A stretch of DNA of 64,000 nt, from the NCBI GenBank assembly GCA_026874595.1, contig CM049316.1, positions 14,325,839 to 14,389,838 on the forward strand. Direction: 5' to 3'. Below the pieces are notes generated by a model, which searched no databases, was not told where the DNA came from, and was given only the letters and a program-made list of their open reading frames with translations. Position 1 is the stretch's first letter. Each line of letters starts with the position of its first letter. Origin of the DNA: Sipunculus nudus (Eukaryota; Annelida; Sipuncula; Golfingiida; Sipunculidae). The translations under genes were made by a program, and so were the position numbers. Positions 10,901 through 44,870 of the stretch are shown here, in pieces.

Positions 10901-12739
10901 TTCATTATACCTGTCCTTCTTATCTGCAACAACAATATTTAAAATTTAACTGTAAAATTCCAGGATAATACAGTAAATGATATCATTAACACAAATAATT
11001 CTTTTTAAAAAGAGACAGAAAACAAATTAAACAAAATCTTGAACTCCTCAGGAAGAGACAAATTCTTTTGTTCCTTGAGCAGGAGGAAAACAAAATTACT
11101 ACTTTTAAAGTAAAAAATATTTAATTATAAAACTATCTGTATTACAAATAAGAAGCTTATTTCATTTATATTAAAGTTTTATCTTTGAATCTGCTGAATA
11201 TGATACCCCGCCAGAGTGTCATACAGATGACCTTTCAGATGATTTATTGATTATGTTATTCTTAAATTTGCTACTGCAAGTGAGATATGAAAACTTATCT
11301 CTAGACACAGCTTCAGAGACACCGATAGGATCCATCCCGGCACTATTTAATTTATGTCTTGACTGGTTTAACTCTAATACTGATTACAAATCTCTCAAGT
11401 CAAGTTTTATCTTTTAGTCAACCAGCACATAATGGAAATTATACAAAAAGTTTCTAATGATAAAAAAAATCATTTTCGACCTACAATTACTTAAGGTATC
11501 AGGACTGTTGGCCTCAACTCAATATTTGAGTCTTATTTTCTCAGAAAAGACAAGAACCATTCTGACTGAAAAACATTGCAGTTGGCAGTTTGTTGATGCC
11601 AAAGCATTATTTATTAAGATTCATTTCTGTATTAAGTTGAGCACACTAAATTTGACATATTTAAAATTTTACGGATTAATACAGTTCTTTTATTTTTTAA
11701 ACAAAAAAGTTTTGTCAACCTTCCGGAATGATTATTGCTTCTTTTTTTTTTACCATAAAATCTAAAGGAAATTATCTTTTTGTGAACAGTCCCACAGCCA
11801 GGCAGGAGATAGTGACAAATTTCAGGAAATGTGTATAGCATGATATGCTTGTTTACCATAGGCTGTAATCACAAGTCATCTGTCAACAAGTCAGCTGAGA
11901 CCTTTACACAGGAGATATAAACATGAGAAGGTTAAAATGTATCAAAAGAAAAACACTAATAAAACAAATGCAAGACAGTATACAATTATTCCTAACTTGC
12001 ATAAAAATTAAGACAATGTTGATTACTCATCACTTATTGTATATGTAATGTTTATCTCTGTTTCCTGATTTATAATGCTAAAATATTGATATATCTTTTA
12101 AACAATAATAATTTTCCTATTATTATTCTTTCAAGTATTTCATAAATACTATATTCTTTTTGCAAAATGTTGGGTGTTAGTCTTCATAAAAAATAATTCT
12201 CTTTTACAGACACCTTATTTTAAATAGAAGTGACATTTTTGCTTGCTATAAGTACAAAAAAATATCAGCTGAACATAAAAGTCTTAATGCCAGGATATTT
12301 ACTGACAAGTTATTGTCACAGTTTCATCCTGGACCATAATTCCCCCTTAATCATCAAGCCCATGATTATATGACCTGCCTCGATCACATGACTTAACATC
12401 ACACACATACACACAACCCTGAACAGATAAAGCCTGTTTGATCACATAATTTTGTGTCAGCACTGCCTGACCCCAGCTCCCACTCCTCCCTGCAGCCATT
12501 TTGGTCACATGACATCCTGTTCAGATCACATGACCTCATCTGTCCATACAGATCAAGCCTTTGCTAAGTATATGACCTTGTATCACTTGCACTCGTCTTG
12601 ATGACCTATTAACAGTCTGGTCAACTGATTTGCATATTAGACTGAAACAGCCAATGAGAGTTGACTAGTGGTGAGAATGAGATTACCACATGAGACAAGC
12701 CATGAGGCTCATACCACAGGCATCTAACCCTCACGCGGG
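7958..12739. other. 3' flank of EDC4, no gene recognised
   Basis: No conserved frame is seen. The right part must contain the EDC4 3' UTR. Reverse-strand AATAAA candidates (plus-strand TTTATT, for example near 11241, 11595 and 11688) are too common in this AT-rich DNA to choose from. Homopolymer G runs lie at about 9376 and 9461. Confidence 0.5.
9109..9116. promoter_or_regulatory. Perfect CRE palindrome TGACGTCA
   Basis: An exact cAMP-response element octamer in a locally GC-richer stretch (acgcccgatccacagcgatgacgt). One 8-mer can occur by chance and no adjacent transcript is evident, so function is only a possibility. Confidence 0.3.
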
Positions 12740-12914
12740 TCATCTGAGGAGGGACTTGGCGGCCATGAGGAGCATGCGCATGTTGCGGGACTCTTGCGGG
12801 TGAGCCTGGATAAAAGCCATCAACTTTTGACACAGCGCGCCCAGCACAGCTGGCATGTGTTCCCTGGTCAGAGTGTTACTGGTGTCCAAGTTCATCACCG
12901 CTTCTTCCAAGAAC
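12740..12914 (-). CDS. EDC4: EDC4 terminal coding exon w16
   Basis: The acceptor is catcttcag. The first base completes Lys AA|G. It encodes FLEEAVMNLDTSNTLTREHM, then PAVLGALCQKLMAFIQAHPQ and ESRNMRMLLMAAKSLLR before TGA. It aligns with the vertebrate C-terminus YLEEAVMHLDHSDPITRDHM. The frame is open 158 nt upstream into the intron, but that part is not conserved. The 3' UTR must extend left; I cannot fix its end. Confidence 0.97.
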
Positions 12915-13394
12915 CTGAAGATGGATGCAAACTTGTTAATGTTTTGACTAACTGAATAAAATAAACACATGATATTTTCACAAGGTGGATTTTGATCAAT
13001 AAAGTAAGCTATCAACAATAAGCTCATAAATTGAGCAATAACCTTAAGTCCATCTACAAGACTTGCAATCATATAATTGTAGCATCATATTTCTTTCTAC
13101 TTACTCATATTCCTATACAATAGTTTCCCTGTCACCATATTCATTATGGCATTTTTGGATCAAAATAGTCCAAGCAGTAACTTTGGACTAAACTGTTACA
13201 TGTAACAAGGCCTTTGCAGCCTATGAAGGATGCAGACAGGTGAAGATAGTGCAATTAGTTTAAAATTTGGTTCTCTTTTATAATACCCATGAGATTAAGC
13301 AAAGTTAGCAAACTGTGTCTTACTGGAGATATACCTCAACTTGAGTTACAACCAAGATGCCAATTTGAACATGTGGTGTCCTAAGACTGCTTCA

Positions 13395-13537
13395 CCTGAT
13401 AATACTTACTTGTGTTTCTGGTGTTGCTGACAATGCTAAATTGTTTTGAGGTCTGTTGCTGATGATAATTACTTGTGTTTGAAGTCTGTTGCTGATGATA
13501 CTTACTTGTGTTTGAGGCCTGTTGCTGACAATACTTA
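13395..13537. repeat. EDC4: Splice-donor satellite, left block
   Basis: About four units of the 33-bp family (acttacttgtgtttgaggcctgttgctgac type), the part of the array farthest from the exon that seeded it. The first unit is degenerate (tgtttctggtgttgctgac). It is broken by the transposon at 13538. Confidence 0.85.
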
Positions 13538-14915
13538 CCGTAAAATCTCCACTTAAAACCACGGTTTAATCAAGAAATTCAAAATCTTGAAATCAGGTTG
13601 ATTTCCTGAAAGCACTGTGCGGTTTATACTAGAAGGGTTTCCTGAATATCTTCCTGACAGACTTCATTTTGGGGCCAGTGAGTGGGCGATAATATTGCAA
13701 CTTCCGAAGGCCGTTCTTAGCAGCAGTCTCGCATGCATGGGAGCCGTGTGTAAAATTATTATTTACGATTATTTGTTATTTATAAATTAAATATTGCTGA
13801 TTAGTTTTCCTGTGATATATAACTTGTTATAAAATTTTGGTAATTGTCACCAAATAATACGTTTACAACAACCCTGCTGTAACACACAGCGGCCCACTTC
13901 GTTGGGCATGGTCAAGCAAAATGAAATAAAAGCCTACTTTAAACCCATTTGCGGCATTATTTAGCAATGATTATTTGTTTAAAACGTAAAATGAATAAAA
14001 AGTTGACATCATAAAGAGTCACACAATGGCAGACGATCGTTTTAAAATCAAGTTTGAGTGTCGCCAAGTGCTGCTAGGAATATTTTGAACGGCTGTACGC
14101 GGTGGGTGGTAAACAGAACAGCCACCTATTTCGTCCCAGCGTGCCTTGCGTGAACACTGCCTTGACAAAATGGCTCCCCACACGGAAACTTTCTTCAGGA
14201 AAAAAAAAACTTGCTTACCCCGACTGGCCACTTTAATTTTACCTTAAAATCACTCGTTATCAAGCGTCATGTTTCCTATACGTGCGTATCTCGACAAGGT
14301 AACTTCAATTACTTTGATATTTAGTTAAGTTGACCAGCGATGTTTTCAAACGCGCCAGCAAATTGTGACATGGAGCGATGTCAGCGTACGATGTGACGAT
14401 GATAATACCGAAGTAACCGGTATGAAAATGATTTGAATCTTCCGAGTAATTCCAGAAAATGGAATTTTCATAAAAATTTTTTTAGAATTAAAATATACAG
14501 TGACTTGAAGTGGATCAGCAGCATATTTTTTTTCAAAATATAATGACAAATCGGTAGCAAACAAGAATACGGCATGGAATATAAAATCTGTATAAACAGG
14601 CAGAGGTTCATCGGCCCATACGTCTTCCCAAACTTATGCTTGAGTGACCCTGCAAAAAAGTGTTATGATGTGTTTAAATCAAATACCCAAGGAAATTAAA
14701 AGTGGACAGGAATGGCCGAGTCGCAACCTACGCGTGTTCATTTCTAGATGATAGCTTAATTGTATCTTTTGTCAAATCATTCCGTAGCGAAAGTTGGTGC
14801 GGTTTAAAAGGGGGGTTCTTAGTATTTGAGCCCCTCGCGATGTCTCACCTGGAATTTCGGCGAAGTCTGGGTGCGGTTTTAATCGGAAGTGCAGTTTTAA
14901 GTGGAGATTTTACGA
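13538..14915. mobile_element. TA-flanked DNA transposon, long copy (1.38 kb), non-autonomous
   Basis: Terminal inverted repeats CCGTAAAATCTCCACTTAAA ... TTTAAGTGGAGATTTTACG(a). It is flanked by TA on both sides (13536-13537, 14916-14917). The TA belongs to the acttacttg of a satellite unit, and joining the flanks restores a normal unit. TA duplication points to the Tc1/mariner/pogo superfamily. No transposase domain was recognised in its frames (14019-14231 and 14346-14564 on minus, 14702-14941 on plus). A shorter inverted copy lies at 15865-16863. Confidence 0.85.
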
Positions 14916-15864
14916 TACTTGTCTTTGAAGTCTGTTGCTGACAATGCTAAATTGTTTTGAGGTCTGTGCTGATGATATTTTCTTGTGTTTGAAGTCTGTT
15001 GCTGACGATACTTACTTGTGTTTGAGGCCTGTTGCTGACAATACTTACTTGTCTTTGAAGTCTGTTGCTGACAATGCTAAATTGTTTTGAGGTCTGTGCT
15101 GATGATATTTTCTTGTGTTTGAAGTCTGTTGCTGACGATATTTACTTGTGTATCAGGCCTGTTGTTGACAATACTTACTTGTGTTTGAGGTCTGTTGCTG
15201 ACAATACTTACTTGTGTTTGAGGTCTGTTGCTGATGATACTTACTTGTGTTTGAGGCCTGTTGCTGACAATACTTACTTGTGTTTGAGGTCTGTTGCTGA
15301 CGATACTAACTTGTGTTTGAGGTCTGTTGCTGACAATGCTAAATTGTTTTGAGGTCTGTGCTGATGATATTTTCTTGTGTTTGAAGTCTGTTGCTGACGA
15401 TACTTACTTGTGTTTAAGGTCTGTTGCTGACAATACTTACTTGTGTTTGAGGTCTGTTGCTGACAATACTTACTTGTCTTTGAAGTCTGTTGCTGACAAT
15501 GCTAAATTGTTTTGAGGTCTGTGCTGATGATATTTTCTTGTGTTTGAAGTCTGTTGCTGACGATACTTACTTGTGTTTGAGGCCTGTTGCTGACAATACT
15601 TTCTTGTGTTTGAGGTTTGTTGCTGACAATACTTACTTGTGTTTGAGGTCGGTTGCTGACAATGCAAAATTGTTTTGAGGTCTGTGCTGATGATATTTTC
15701 TTGTGTTTGAGGTTTGCTGCTGACGATACTTAATTGTGTTGGAGGACTGTTGCTGATGATACTTACTTGTGTTTGAGGTCTGTTGCTGATGATACTTACT
15801 TGTGTTTGAGGTCTGTTGTTGATGATAATTACTTGTGTTTGAGGCCTGTTGCTGATGATACTTA
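14916..15864. repeat. EDC4: Splice-donor satellite, central block
   Basis: Close to thirty units of 32-34 bp. A variant unit (gctaaattgttttgaggtctgtgctgatgatattttc) recurs at 14945, 15073, 15337, 15500 and 15662, giving a higher-order pattern. On the minus strand normal units read CAACAGACCTCAAACACAA then GTAAGT, identical to the end of EDC4 exon w15 and its donor. Open frames across it are artefacts of a unit length near a multiple of three. Confidence 0.95.
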
Positions 15865-16863
15865 CCGTAAAATCTCCACTTAAAACTGCACTTCCGATTA
15901 AAACCGCACCCAGACTTCGCAGAAATTCCAGGTGAGACATCGCGAGGTGCTCAAATACTAAGAAACCCCCTTTAAAACCGCACCAACTTTCGCTACGGAA
16001 TGATTTGATAAAAGACACAATCAAGCTATCGCGTTGAAAACATCGCTGGTCAACTTAACTAAATATCAAAGTAATTGAAGTTACCTTGTCGAGATACGCA
16101 CGTATAGGAAACACGACGCTTGATAATGAGTGATTTTAAGGTAAAATTAAAGTGGCCAGTCGGGGTAAGCAAGTTTTTTTTTCCTGAAGAAAGTTTCCGT
16201 GTTGGGAGCCATTTTGTCAAGGCAGTGTTCACGCAAGGCACGCTGGGACGAAATAGGTGGCTGTTCTGTTTACCACCCACCGCGTACAGCCGTTCAAAAT
16301 ATTCTTAGCAGAATACTGGGGCGTTTCAGCATACGGCGGCACTCAAACTTGATTTTAAAACGATCGTCTGCCTTTGTGTGACTCCTTCTGATGTCAGCTT
16401 TTTATTCATTTTACGTTTTAAACAAATAATCATAGCTAAATAATGTCGCAAATGGGTTTAAAGTAGGCTTTTTTTTCAATTTTGCTTGACCATGCCCAAC
16501 GAAGTGGGCCGCTGTGTGTTACAGCAGGGTTGTTGTAAACGTATTATTTGGTGACAATTACCAAAATTTTATAACAAGTTATATATCACACGAAAACTAA
16601 TCAGCAATATTTAATTTATAAATAACAAATAATCGTAAATAATACATTTACACATGGCTCCCATGCATGCGAGAATGCTGCTAAGAACGGCCTTCGAAAG
16701 TTGCAATATTATCGCCCACTCACCGGCCCCAAAACGATGTCTGTCAGGAAGATATTCAGGAAACCCTTCTAGTATAAACCGCACAGTGCTTTCAGGAAAT
16801 CAACCTGATTTTAAGATTTTGAATTTCTTGATTAAACCGCGGTTTTAAGTGGAGATTTTACGG
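15865..16863. mobile_element. TA-flanked DNA transposon, short inverted copy (1.0 kb)
   Basis: It has the same CCGTAAAATC ends as the copy at 13538 but the interior runs in the opposite direction. For example gcatgcatgggagcc at 13729 corresponds to ggctcccatgcatgc at 16655. It also sits in the TA of a satellite unit (15863-15864, 16864-16865). Relative to the long copy it lacks about 375 bp. The deletion joins two ACGCG motifs that are separate in the long copy (near 14350 and 14729), suggesting a microhomology-mediated deletion. Confidence 0.85.
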
Positions 16864-17183
16864 TACTTGTGTTTGAGGCCTGATGCTGACAATACTTACT
16901 TGTCTTTGAAGTCTGTTGCTGACGATACTTATTTGTGTTTGAGGTCTGTTGCTGACAATGCTAAATTGTTTTGAGGTCTGTGCTGATGATATTTTCTTGT
17001 GTTTGAGGTTTGTTGCTGACGATGCTTACTTGTGTTGGAGGTCTGCTGCAGACAATACTTATTTGTGTTTGAGGTCTGTTGCTGACAATACTTACTTGTG
17101 TTTGAGGTCTGTTGCTGATGATACTTACTTGTGTTGGAGGTCTGTTGCTGATGATACTTACTTGTGTTTGAGGTCTGTTGCTG
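16864..17183. repeat. EDC4: Splice-donor satellite, block adjoining the exon
   Basis: About nine units running without a break into the end of exon w15. The last unit (17156-17183) is the real exon-intron junction: its ttgtgtttgaggtctgttgctg is the terminal 22 bp of coding sequence and its acttac is the functional donor. This fixes the origin of the array. Confidence 0.92.
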
Positions 17184-17325
17184 TGACCAGGTCTGCTGAC
17201 AGCTGTTGTATCAGGGACAGCAGGACAGGCTGCTGCAGTGGACAGGGCACCTGGTTGAAGACTTGGGCAGGATCCACATTCTCACAAACAAATATAACCA
17301 GTTCCAGGTTAGCTGCTGACAAGGC
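17162..17325 (-). CDS. EDC4: EDC4 penultimate exon w15, conserved C-terminal helices
   Basis: The acceptor is ttttttcag and the donor is CACAA|GTAAGT. It encodes ALSAANLELVIFVCENVDPA, then QVFNQVPCPLQQPVLLSLIQ and QLSADLVTATDLKH, matching the vertebrate ADLNLVLYVCETVDPAQVF block closely. The C-terminal region of EDC4 is the part reported to support P-body localisation and self-association. The last 22 bases of this exon, with the donor, are the seed of the satellite that fills the next intron. The real donor is the first of a long row of copies. Confidence 0.97.
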
Positions 17326-18826
17326 CTGAAAAAACACAAATGTTGACACTGTTACAACACCAAGTTAAGCAGTAATATCATTAGAGGTGTAGTGATACAC
17401 TGGTATAATGTGGTACAGAGTAAATCACTGTAGCGATATCAGTATCACCATTATTAACAGTAAGCATTGTTTTTCCCTTTTTCTCATGTCTGAATATGTT
17501 GCAACTTATAATCAGCCTCAATTTTAATTTATATTCAAATAAATACATTCAGATCTAACACAAAGGACTGACATCTTGATTTCAGCTAGCTTTTTATTTC
17601 CCATGAATCACAGATACGCCTCTTGATGACCCATGTAAAGCAGGACTCGCACAGTGCATGTTTTTAACCCATATTTCCTGTGCTATGATATGCTATGTGC
17701 TTGTACAATCTGATGCTAAAATCATAATGAATAACAGTAAAGGACAACATGATTCCCTGTGACTGTTTGTGACTGACATTTGTTCAAATGGTGTCTGTAT
17801 CAGAAATCAAATTTTCAATATACACCACATTTTCATAATTTTTCAAAATTTTAAGATAATTGTTCTAGCTTTTGATGCATAAACATATCTTGACCTGAAG
17901 TTTAAAACAATCTTTATGATAATATCTATCTGCTGTTGCTTTTATATCTTATCTGAATAAATAAGATCAGACCTACTGCTCCCATGAAGCACATATGGCA
18001 CACCAAATCACAAGTGTTTTGAAGGCAAGGATGTTTGAAGAGCAAGATTTCAAGGAAAGTAGTTTTGGAGACCCCCCCCCCCCCCCCCCCGGTTAAATTT
18101 AATGTAAATATAATGAGTGTCAGAATATGTAAGACTTAAAGATTACAGCTGTGTTTCCATGTAAGCATATGCATGGAAATCACTCACAATTTTGTAACTG
18201 TGTTGTACCCGTCAGTGTCCGTCCACATATTAGCATATGTGCGTATATGCATGAAAATAGCCACAGTGGAGATAATTATGCATATGGTCTGTGTGAACTA
18301 CGAGTTTCCTGTTAAAATGACAGCTTTCCAGCTTTTTTCTTGTGGTGGGAAGATCTGATCACTTCTTGCTGTTCAGGCAAATATGCACATATGCAAACAT
18401 GAATTCATATGTATTTGTGTAGATCGAGAGAAGTGGACATCTTCACACACAAATACATAATGTTTTCATTCACTTGATTTCTTTTCCCCTTTTTGCTATA
18501 GTTATATCTTAATATGCAGTAGTCTCTGTTTTTATGTATACTGATTGTGTTCGTCCATGCATGATATGAATTTTATTTTTTTACGTATATCATATAAGTA
18601 ATACATGTATGTTGTATTCAGTCATGTTTTGTACTGTTTTATAGTGCTTAACAGTGAATTCTGGTATATTTTAGTTAATCTTATTAAAGTAATAAATATT
18701 TTCTTTTTATATTTATGCAGACAAAATGTTATTTCCAAGCTTAGGATTAATAAAGTACATTTTATCCTATCTCAATATTCACGTATGTTTGCATATACAC
18801 AAATATAGAGACACATATGAACTGAC
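17326..18826. other. EDC4 intron, nothing recognised apart from a poly-C run
   Basis: AT-rich intron between exons w14 and w15. There is a C19 run at 18072-18090. Several short atatgcatat/gcatatgtgcg patches occur around 18160-18420. Confidence 0.5.
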
Positions 18827-31758: not shown

Positions 31759-33224
31759 TTATAAAGGAGCTATTCCATGCATTTCAAAATCCTCGCCTGT
31801 TATTTCATCTTCAGAAAAATTACTAATATCACTGTCACTGTCATCATCTGTCACATTAATAATAAAATTATCAACTACGTCATCTATCAAACCATCAACC
31901 TTCCACATTTCCTCTTCAACTCTTTTCACATGGTCACAGGCCCTCCTCCAATCGTCCACTGTAACTGATTCCACTGCTTCAGCACACAGGTCAGCAACTG
32001 AAGACATCTTAAACGATGAATTGTTCCGAGCTGCATATCCCTGAACTTATGCCCATATTAGCTCAATTGGGTTCAGTTCACAGTGATTTGGGGGTAAACG
32101 TACAACAGTGTGACCACGTTCCTCTGCCCAAGTGTCAATTTTGTACTTCACAAAGGTTGGCTTGGCTTTCTTTACAAGTTCATACAGTTCTGGCTTCAGC
32201 ATGTCATGGGACCAGTGGATTTTGTGAGCTGTGAGCCAAGCGCGCATATCACCTCTCCTGGTTTTACTAGTGGGAGCTTTGTGTAATATCACACTGTGAT
32301 ATGGAGCATTGTCCATAACAATGACAGACTTGGGAGGAAGGTTTGGAACCAACTTTTCCATGAACCATGACTCAAATTGGGGAGCATCCATTTCCTCGTG
32401 GTAGTCAGCAGTTCCTTTCCTGGCTTGGAATGTCCACAAAGCATTAGGAACAAATCCCAATTCTCCCCCAGCATGGGAAATGATTAACCGTCCACCCTTG
32501 CCACTTGGCTGGTGTAATCCTGGTGACAAGTTGTCTTGCTGAGCCTTCCAAGGATTTTTGTGTACCTGTGTATCTTGCCACACACGACAAACAAAATGAT
32601 GGGCATTCAGCCAAGTCTCATCAAGGTAGACAATAGTACCTACAGATGGGTGTTCACGCAACATTCTTATCTGCCTCAGATACCTGTGTCTTCGTGCAAG
32701 GATATCTGGCTTCTCATACACAAAAATCCGCCCATTTCTTTTCTGGTATTTAAAGCCAAGTTTGTGAAGTATTTTCCATAAAGTTGTCCGCCCATATGGG
32801 AATCCACAGTCTGCTTGTTGGATGGAATTAAGCAGTTTATTTTCAAGGTTGGAACCTCATTACAATGGAAGAACTGATGCACATTCCTTCTGATCACACT
32901 AAGCATAAAATAATCAACCTGTGAAAATTGGGCTTCCCTGTTGGGTCTTTTTTTACCAGGGGTGCATAACTGATCCTTTTCTGTTCCTTCCACCCTTACT
33001 CGTGACACTGTGCGTTCACCAACACCTGTAGCTTCTGCAGTTCATTCCCTAACTTTCTTCACAGAGATTGCAGGGTGGCCGAGCTGCTTTTCTCTTTCAA
33101 AATACTGATTTACATTCAGTATAATGCCTCTTGCCTGGCTGGTTAAACACTTTCCTTGAAACTTTTTCAAAGAGCTTTTTCTGTCTTCTGGTTTCTTTGT
33201 TTTACTTGTTGGTGTTGCCGACAT
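31759..33224 (-). pseudogene. IS630/Tc1/mariner-type DDE transposase, probably DD82E/Sailor-like, inactivated
   Basis: A minus-strand frame of about 480 residues. It has an N-terminal basic region (MSATPTSKTKKPEDRKSSLK), a helix-turn-helix-like part (TAEATGVGERTVSRV) and a DDE core: LDETW near 32615, VMDNAPYH near 32310 and LNPIELIWA before 32050. I count 82 residues between the second Asp and the Glu. A reported metazoan family with that spacing is Sailor (DD82E). The acidic tail ends at 31759. Three lesions are seen: TGA in VRE*TAEA (about 33043-33045), a frameshift near 32845, and TAA after LIWA (32047-32049). Downstream of that stop the same frame continues. Terminal repeats were not found. 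Confidence 0.85.
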
Positions 33225-44702: not shown

Positions 44703-44870
44703 TTGGAATGTAGCCCCTGGTCTGCCAGCAGGAGTGGAGGCTGCTCTGCCAGCAGGAGTGGAGGCTGCTCTGCCAGCAGGAGCGGAGGCTGCTCAAGCTC
44801 TTCCTCCTGGCTCTGGTCTTCTGCCTGGATGCTGCCAGATCCATCAACAGTCTCAGCCTCTTGTTCTTTC
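44703..44870 (-). CDS. EDC4: EDC4 exon w6, with a 24-bp coding tandem repeat
   Basis: The acceptor is ctgtacag and the donor is the perfect GTAAGT. It encodes KEQEAETVDGSGSIQAEDQS, QEEELEQPPL, then repeats. The octapeptide EQPPLLLA occurs three times in a row (the third ends in D), encoded by near-identical 24-bp units, and is followed by DQGLHS. Because each unit is 24 bp, gain or loss keeps the frame. I know of no such repeat in vertebrate EDC4, so it looks lineage-specific. Confidence 0.9.

Follow-up and report, generated by a model that had tools for sequence, protein, structure and literature searches.

The window analysed here, a stretch of 64,000 nucleotides from Sipunculus nudus (assembly GCA_026874595.1, contig CM049316.1), carries on its minus strand the two final coding exons of EDC4, which are separated by an intron of 4247 nt. 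The gene was recognised through the 112-residue peptide of both exons joined, which matches the Pfam family EDC4_C at 2.3e-42 and aligns, without a gap at the junction, with PDB 2vxg (1.7e-18; listed as CG6181-PA, which we take to be Drosophila Ge-1). Across this junction, AA and G make up a lysine codon, and the frame is restored by the last coding exon. Throughout the 1.43-Gb genome, profile matches to EDC4_C are confined to these two exons. Most of the intron is occupied by a tandem array and by two elements inserted in it, outside which 471 nt are left. The features are listed below in the direction of the gene, with a slash marking the exon-intron boundary or its copies.

17162..17325, minus strand: penultimate EDC4 coding exon (w15), which contributes its final 22 bp (17162-17183) to the repeat unit
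17156..17161, minus strand: true 5' splice site, CAA/GTAAGT, with the frame restored by the next exon and a gapless peptide alignment
16864..17161, minus strand: array block 1, after the true donor; 8 complete copies, 3 with intact AA/GTAAGT
15865..16863, minus strand: inserted element 1, 999 bp, with inverted ends CCGTAAAATCTCCACTTAAAAC and TA on both sides, in the TA of a unit's GTAAGT
14916..15864, minus strand: array block 2; 28 complete copies, 13 intact donors, and a repeated defective pair GAAAAT / TTTAGC
13538..14915, minus strand: inserted element 2, 1378 bp, of the family of element 1 and in opposite orientation, in the TA of a donor
13386..13537, minus strand: array block 3 and array end; 4 complete copies, 2 intact donors, after which the intron continues CAGGTGAAG
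12740..12914, minus strand: last EDC4 coding exon (Pfam EDC4_C)

The 33-bp unit and its array

On the minus strand, the 33-bp unit reads CAGCAACAGACCTCAAACACAA/GTAAGTATCAT, in which 22 bases of exon are followed by the donor hexamer GTAAGT and by 5 bases of intron, while the end of the EDC4 exon reads ...CAGCAACAGACCTCAAACACAA/GTAAGTATCATCAG. The initial annotation had composed the unit of the end of exon w15, its donor and some intron bases, and this description holds base for base: bases 1-22 are the final 22 of the exon and the following 6 are the true donor, with all 22+6 bases identical to the satellite consensus. Its count of about forty copies after the true donor stands as well, since wrap-around alignment counts 41 complete units, one of them exonic, hence 40 copies, plus 2 further units that are each split by an inserted element. 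Where it overstated the case was in having most copies keep a perfect AA/GTAAGT, which is intact in only 18 of the 40 (19 of 41 counting the true donor). The exact 22-mer is retained in 9/40 copies, and the 40 intronic copies average 94% identity over the exon-like bases and 82% over those of the donor. A search of the window for the 22-base core, allowing up to 3 mismatches, yields 33 occurrences, whereas 100 shuffles averaged 0.00. Donor survival shows no trend with position (3/8, 13/28 and 2/4 intact in blocks 1-3), and the pair of units with the defective donors GAAAAT and TTTAGC is found six times in the array of this one assembly, a record of amplification by blocks.

The coordinates originally given for the satellite (13395-17183) are those of the array, but the span is not satellite throughout, as about 2.4 kb of its 3.8 kb belong to the two inserted elements. 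These are both flanked by TA, have their inverted ends in common, share 96.5% identity over 982 aligned bases and are members of a dispersed family with 1335 candidate places in the genome, 40 of which were scored and yielded 76 matching pieces; 10 other copies (L040-L048, L090) have TA at both ends, save for one TG end in L046. Each of the two insertions left an ACG/GTAAGT donor, with a predicted U1 duplex of -11.2 kcal/mol versus -7.5 for the true donor, so that a TA-targeting element entering GTAAGT yields a donor that is predicted to pair with U1 more strongly. Being inverted relative to each other, both elements could form a stem of about 1 kb in the pre-mRNA. GTAATT, a variant seen in just 2 of 41 units, occurs at most 2 units past both elements, a placement that might reflect one duplicated piece inverted later, instead of two independent insertions.

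Elsewhere in the window (32047-33041, minus strand) there are overlapping frames of 269 and 121 aa, presumably a Tc1-type transposase in two frames. The gene region of the satellite also holds a second donor-adjoining array, a 24-bp repeat of 3.2 copies in an apparent coding exon (44717-44794), which stops about 14 bp short of the minus-strand donor CCAA/GTAAGT.

Probable growth in place and known counterparts

When up to 3 mismatches are allowed, a 28-mer matches the 1.43-Gb genome at 30 places, all 30 within the EDC4 array (the window alone also gives 30), and its reversed control finds none. Because all the close genome matches sit at EDC4, the array would have grown in place; the several loci of a dispersed satellite family were not seen in this search, and the satellite core has no exact match in viral contigs. 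The exact match, the single locus and the exon copy standing first support the initial proposal that the satellite was seeded by the EDC4 5' splice junction. Dispersed elements do make up other parts of the intron, as might be expected if a mobile satellite or an unrelated repeat had inserted beside the exon, yet the genome search gave no second locus and the first unit is the exon itself, and we regard such an arrival as next to impossible. Tandem arrays are also prone to misassembly, and the copy number is uncertain; even so, 25 distinct unit sequences among 41 and two differing insertions make it very improbable that the array is an artefact of the assembly.

A satellite seeded by a splice donor was thought at the outset to be undescribed, but the kind is already known, and in the human IFI6 (6-16) gene a minisatellite was reportedly found by Turri et al. 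in 1995 to give multiple splice donors. Two downstream units of the IFI6 (6-16) minisatellite are reported to serve as donors (PMC4526556). Repeat units would provide alternative donors in both genes, by prediction in EDC4 and by reported use in IFI6. Amphioxus Adh3 and globin genes carry “mirages”, minisatellite-like tandem duplications of exon-intron boundaries that are unstable in length, possibly general in cephalochordates and said to leave regular splicing undisturbed (PMC3087553). As in the mirages, the EDC4 copies span a genuine exon-intron boundary whose authentic version stays, and splice signals are kept in many, not all, of the copies (18/40 in EDC4); the 33-bp unit is of minisatellite size, within the 10-72 bp given for Adh3, while globin units measure 150-160 bp and one globin mirage is on the acceptor side (PMC3087553). 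The EDC4 array differs in being on the donor side only, in its 33-bp unit and about 40 copies, and in lying in another gene.

In human ABCA7, a polymorphic and disease-linked VNTR of intron 18 begins at the GT of the exon-18 donor, with a 25-bp unit that opens with this donor (PMC5954066). That report gives an isoform one unit longer at 2 +/- 1%, an exon-19 skipping that increases with array length, and alternative transcripts that, taken together, outweigh the canonical transcript in 90% of the samples from BA10 and in 31% of those from hippocampus (PMC5954066). Retention of one unit leads to a premature stop in ABCA7, by frameshift, and would lead to one, in frame, in EDC4; the ABCA7 unit is described from the GT on and exon bases are no part of that description, unlike in EDC4 (PMC5954066). 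Introns can also be gained via tandem duplication of AGGT segments, with fission yeast cases involving repeated 24-bp segments: this makes a new intron whereas EDC4 enlarges an existing one, and splice signals are copied in both (PMC4974935). The minisatellites of earthworm metallothionein and the repeats of human segmental duplications are less close than the mirages, ABCA7 and IFI6.

Taking these counterparts into account, we think it probable that the EDC4 array is a donor-side mirage minisatellite, grown from a duplication of the junction under near-neutrality and with the first donor as the main one. The array ends in TATTAT, followed by CAGGTGAAG, and the exonic unit opens with CAG; with CAG at both presumed breakpoints, a 33-bp tandem duplication over the exon-intron junction, probably between two CAG triplets, would fit. 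The original exon end would have been kept and the copies placed downstream, within the intron, where they would be free to multiply through slippage or unequal exchange, as single units and as blocks, and two copies of the TA-targeting element would later have entered the array. The locus is a case of intron growth, presumably from about half a kilobase to 4.2 kb.

Splicing consequences and competing readings

Of 47 changes on minimum spanning trees, about 14 affect the donor hexamer, against 8.5 expected (one-sided P 0.036), and it holds 8 of 24 distinct derived states (P 0.056), both P values being rough owing to the shared ancestry of the units. No conservation of donors was found among the copies, in which the donor positions have changed no more slowly than the others, and the excess of changes over expectation speaks for an absence of constraint on them. 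A faster decay of the hexamer is possible, which counts against the near-neutral reading, as plain neutrality makes no such prediction.

Extension of the exon to any later donor adds a lysine and then, at once, an in-frame TAA. The distances from this stop to the junction are 29, 62 and 258 nt for the next three GTAAGT and, as NMD usually requires 50-55 nt, it would be expected from the second later intact donor on. The first donor is expected to be the main one, and the downstream donors, probably used at a low level, would lead to the TAA and likely to NMD from the second on. The downstream copies, with a 9-mer and a predicted U1 duplex (-7.5 kcal/mol) the same as those of the true donor and with exon bases duplicated too, count against this preference, and so do the stronger ACG/GTAAGT donors made by the two elements and the reported use of two downstream units in IFI6. 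Neutral growth with the first donor mostly used is nevertheless the best reading of the sequence, given the precedents of the amphioxus mirages (PMC3087553) and of the ABCA7 isoform at 2 +/- 1% (PMC5954066). The array need not be harmless, since ABCA7 exon-19 skipping grew with array length (PMC5954066).

A CAG stands ahead of the exon-like piece in 38 of the 41 units and, on paper, delimits the 19-nt micro-exons that the initial annotation had pointed out. The 14 nt left between neighbouring ones (GTAAGTATCATCAG) are too few for an intron, and these pieces would not work as micro-exons. Recursive splicing, also suggested initially, relies on ratchet sites where AG and GT are juxtaposed within an intron (AG/GT); the units read CAA/GT, and the sole AGGTRAG in 13386-17325 sits inside element 2, which leaves this suggestion without sequence support. 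A search of Rfam over 12500-17700 gave no match at gathering scores, and the fold of the exon plus block 1 (16880-17330) is less stable than its shuffles (z +2.2; 99 of 100 at least as stable).

Could the array nevertheless work for the gene? A poison extension, in which controlled use of downstream donors and their in-frame TAA would lower EDC4 through NMD, would draw on the immediate stop behind any later donor and on the first two intact donors after the true one, which lie 33 and 66 nt downstream and are predicted to pair with U1 equally well. This stop is, however, already implied by the seed (AAG TAA), and among the donor arrays of other genes described below, one-unit retention is open and in frame in L087, L095, L096 and L097, with a stop or frameshift in the others, so that the stop is no feature of the class; the donors show no conservation either, and we judge such a device unlikely. 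The array could also bind U1 as a decoy, thereby repressing the true donor or shielding the intron from early polyadenylation, as would suit the concentration in 13386-17183 of 21 of the 33 same-strand GTAAGT of the 64-kb window (including the true donor and the two made by the elements). Retention of the motif in only 18/40 copies and the lack of donor conservation deprive this early suggestion of sequence support and make it quite improbable.

Donor arrays elsewhere in the genome

Further arrays were searched for with two donor octamers. Three AAGTAAGT with 12-40 bases between them occur in 1126 places, the 100 listed of which fall into 13 separate sites; a pure AAGT microsatellite and one irregular site were excluded and 11 were examined (L079-L089). 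Seven of these arrays start at an apparent exon end (L079, L080, L081, L082, L085, L087, L089), L084 and L086 start 25-170 bp downstream of exon-like sequence, and L083 and L088 extend beyond the examined piece. For AGGTAAGT, the 100 places listed of 687 were counted as 22 arrays, and the first 10 in order were examined (L091-L100): six start at an apparent exon end (L093, L095-L099), L092 is plausible, L091 and L100 lack an exon, and L094 runs beyond the examined piece. Both searches together give an exon-end start, read by eye and not blind, in 13 of 21 arrays, or 13 of the 18 with a visible start.

Homologues reaching the donor identify 4 of these 13 exons, namely annexin (Pfam, 3.4e-15), XPD (8.4e-16; missed by Pfam alone), PKA RI-alpha (8.6e-25) and ABCC2 (1.3e-9, over the whole 56-residue exon peptide). 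Two more have weak matches under the Pfam cut-offs (Lips, 7.6e-4; PH, 0.016), and the other seven are based on an open frame and splice-like borders. Pfam gave no match for L079, L082, L093 and L097 and nothing weighty for L081, L087 and L099, and NCBIfam had no match for four short exon peptides. These readings support the recurrence of donor-seeded arrays in this genome, where about a dozen further genes appear to have donor arrays of their own. Such further arrays within one genome are what is new here; a genome-wide account of them was not found in the literature searched, mostly outside subscription papers.

In 12 of 14 arrays (EDC4 and the 13), exon sequence takes up 20-34 nt of the unit and intron sequence 7-22 nt, whereas in L081 and L085 the array opens exactly at the donor and the unit is without exon bases, as described for ABCA7. 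These lengths are medians over at most 3 copies per array, with scatter in L079 (37, 5, 34), L082 (26, 17, 26) and L087 (36, 25, 3); in L093 the first copy was used (21), the second scoring 0 at the end of the piece. A uniform placement of the donor within the unit is unlikely by a Kolmogorov-Smirnov test picked post hoc (P 0.003, n = 14).

The donor-octamer search itself favours donor-seeded arrays, even under random array placement, and by a rough estimate from exon densities a fifth to a quarter of arrays would be donor-seeded by chance. The 1126 matches of AAGTAAGT compare with 2923 of the reversed octamer, both near 4-bp repeats, and the 687 of AGGTAAGT with 533 (225 versus 173 with gaps of 18-33), counts that measure array length and not arrays, as the first 100 control places listed are two arrays. 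Among the matches listed on contigs C1-C3, separate arrays with both gaps of 18-33 number 9 for AGGTAAGT and 9 for the control, and as array counts show no excess over the control octamer, a preference for donors is unproven. Extrapolation from the by-eye readings suggests about 90 donor-seeded arrays for the two octamers, the listed arrays being scaled by the length of C1-C3 and part of C4, less than a quarter of the genome. That minisatellites arise repeatedly at splice donors in this animal, with these extrapolated 90 arrays and their fixed anatomy reflecting a process or filter tied to the junction and not chance, is a tentative idea that we find rather doubtful. A single case is a curiosity; introns whose own donor is repeated many times at their start offer natural experiments on the choice among near-identical 5' splice sites, and a set of arrays differing in length, phase and decay makes a statistical test feasible with ordinary cDNA reads.

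The 2.9-kb stretch past the annexin array contains a frame that looks annexin-like by eye and may be the next exon. Another copy of the TA-flanked element lies past this annexin donor array (L090, 1037-2438).
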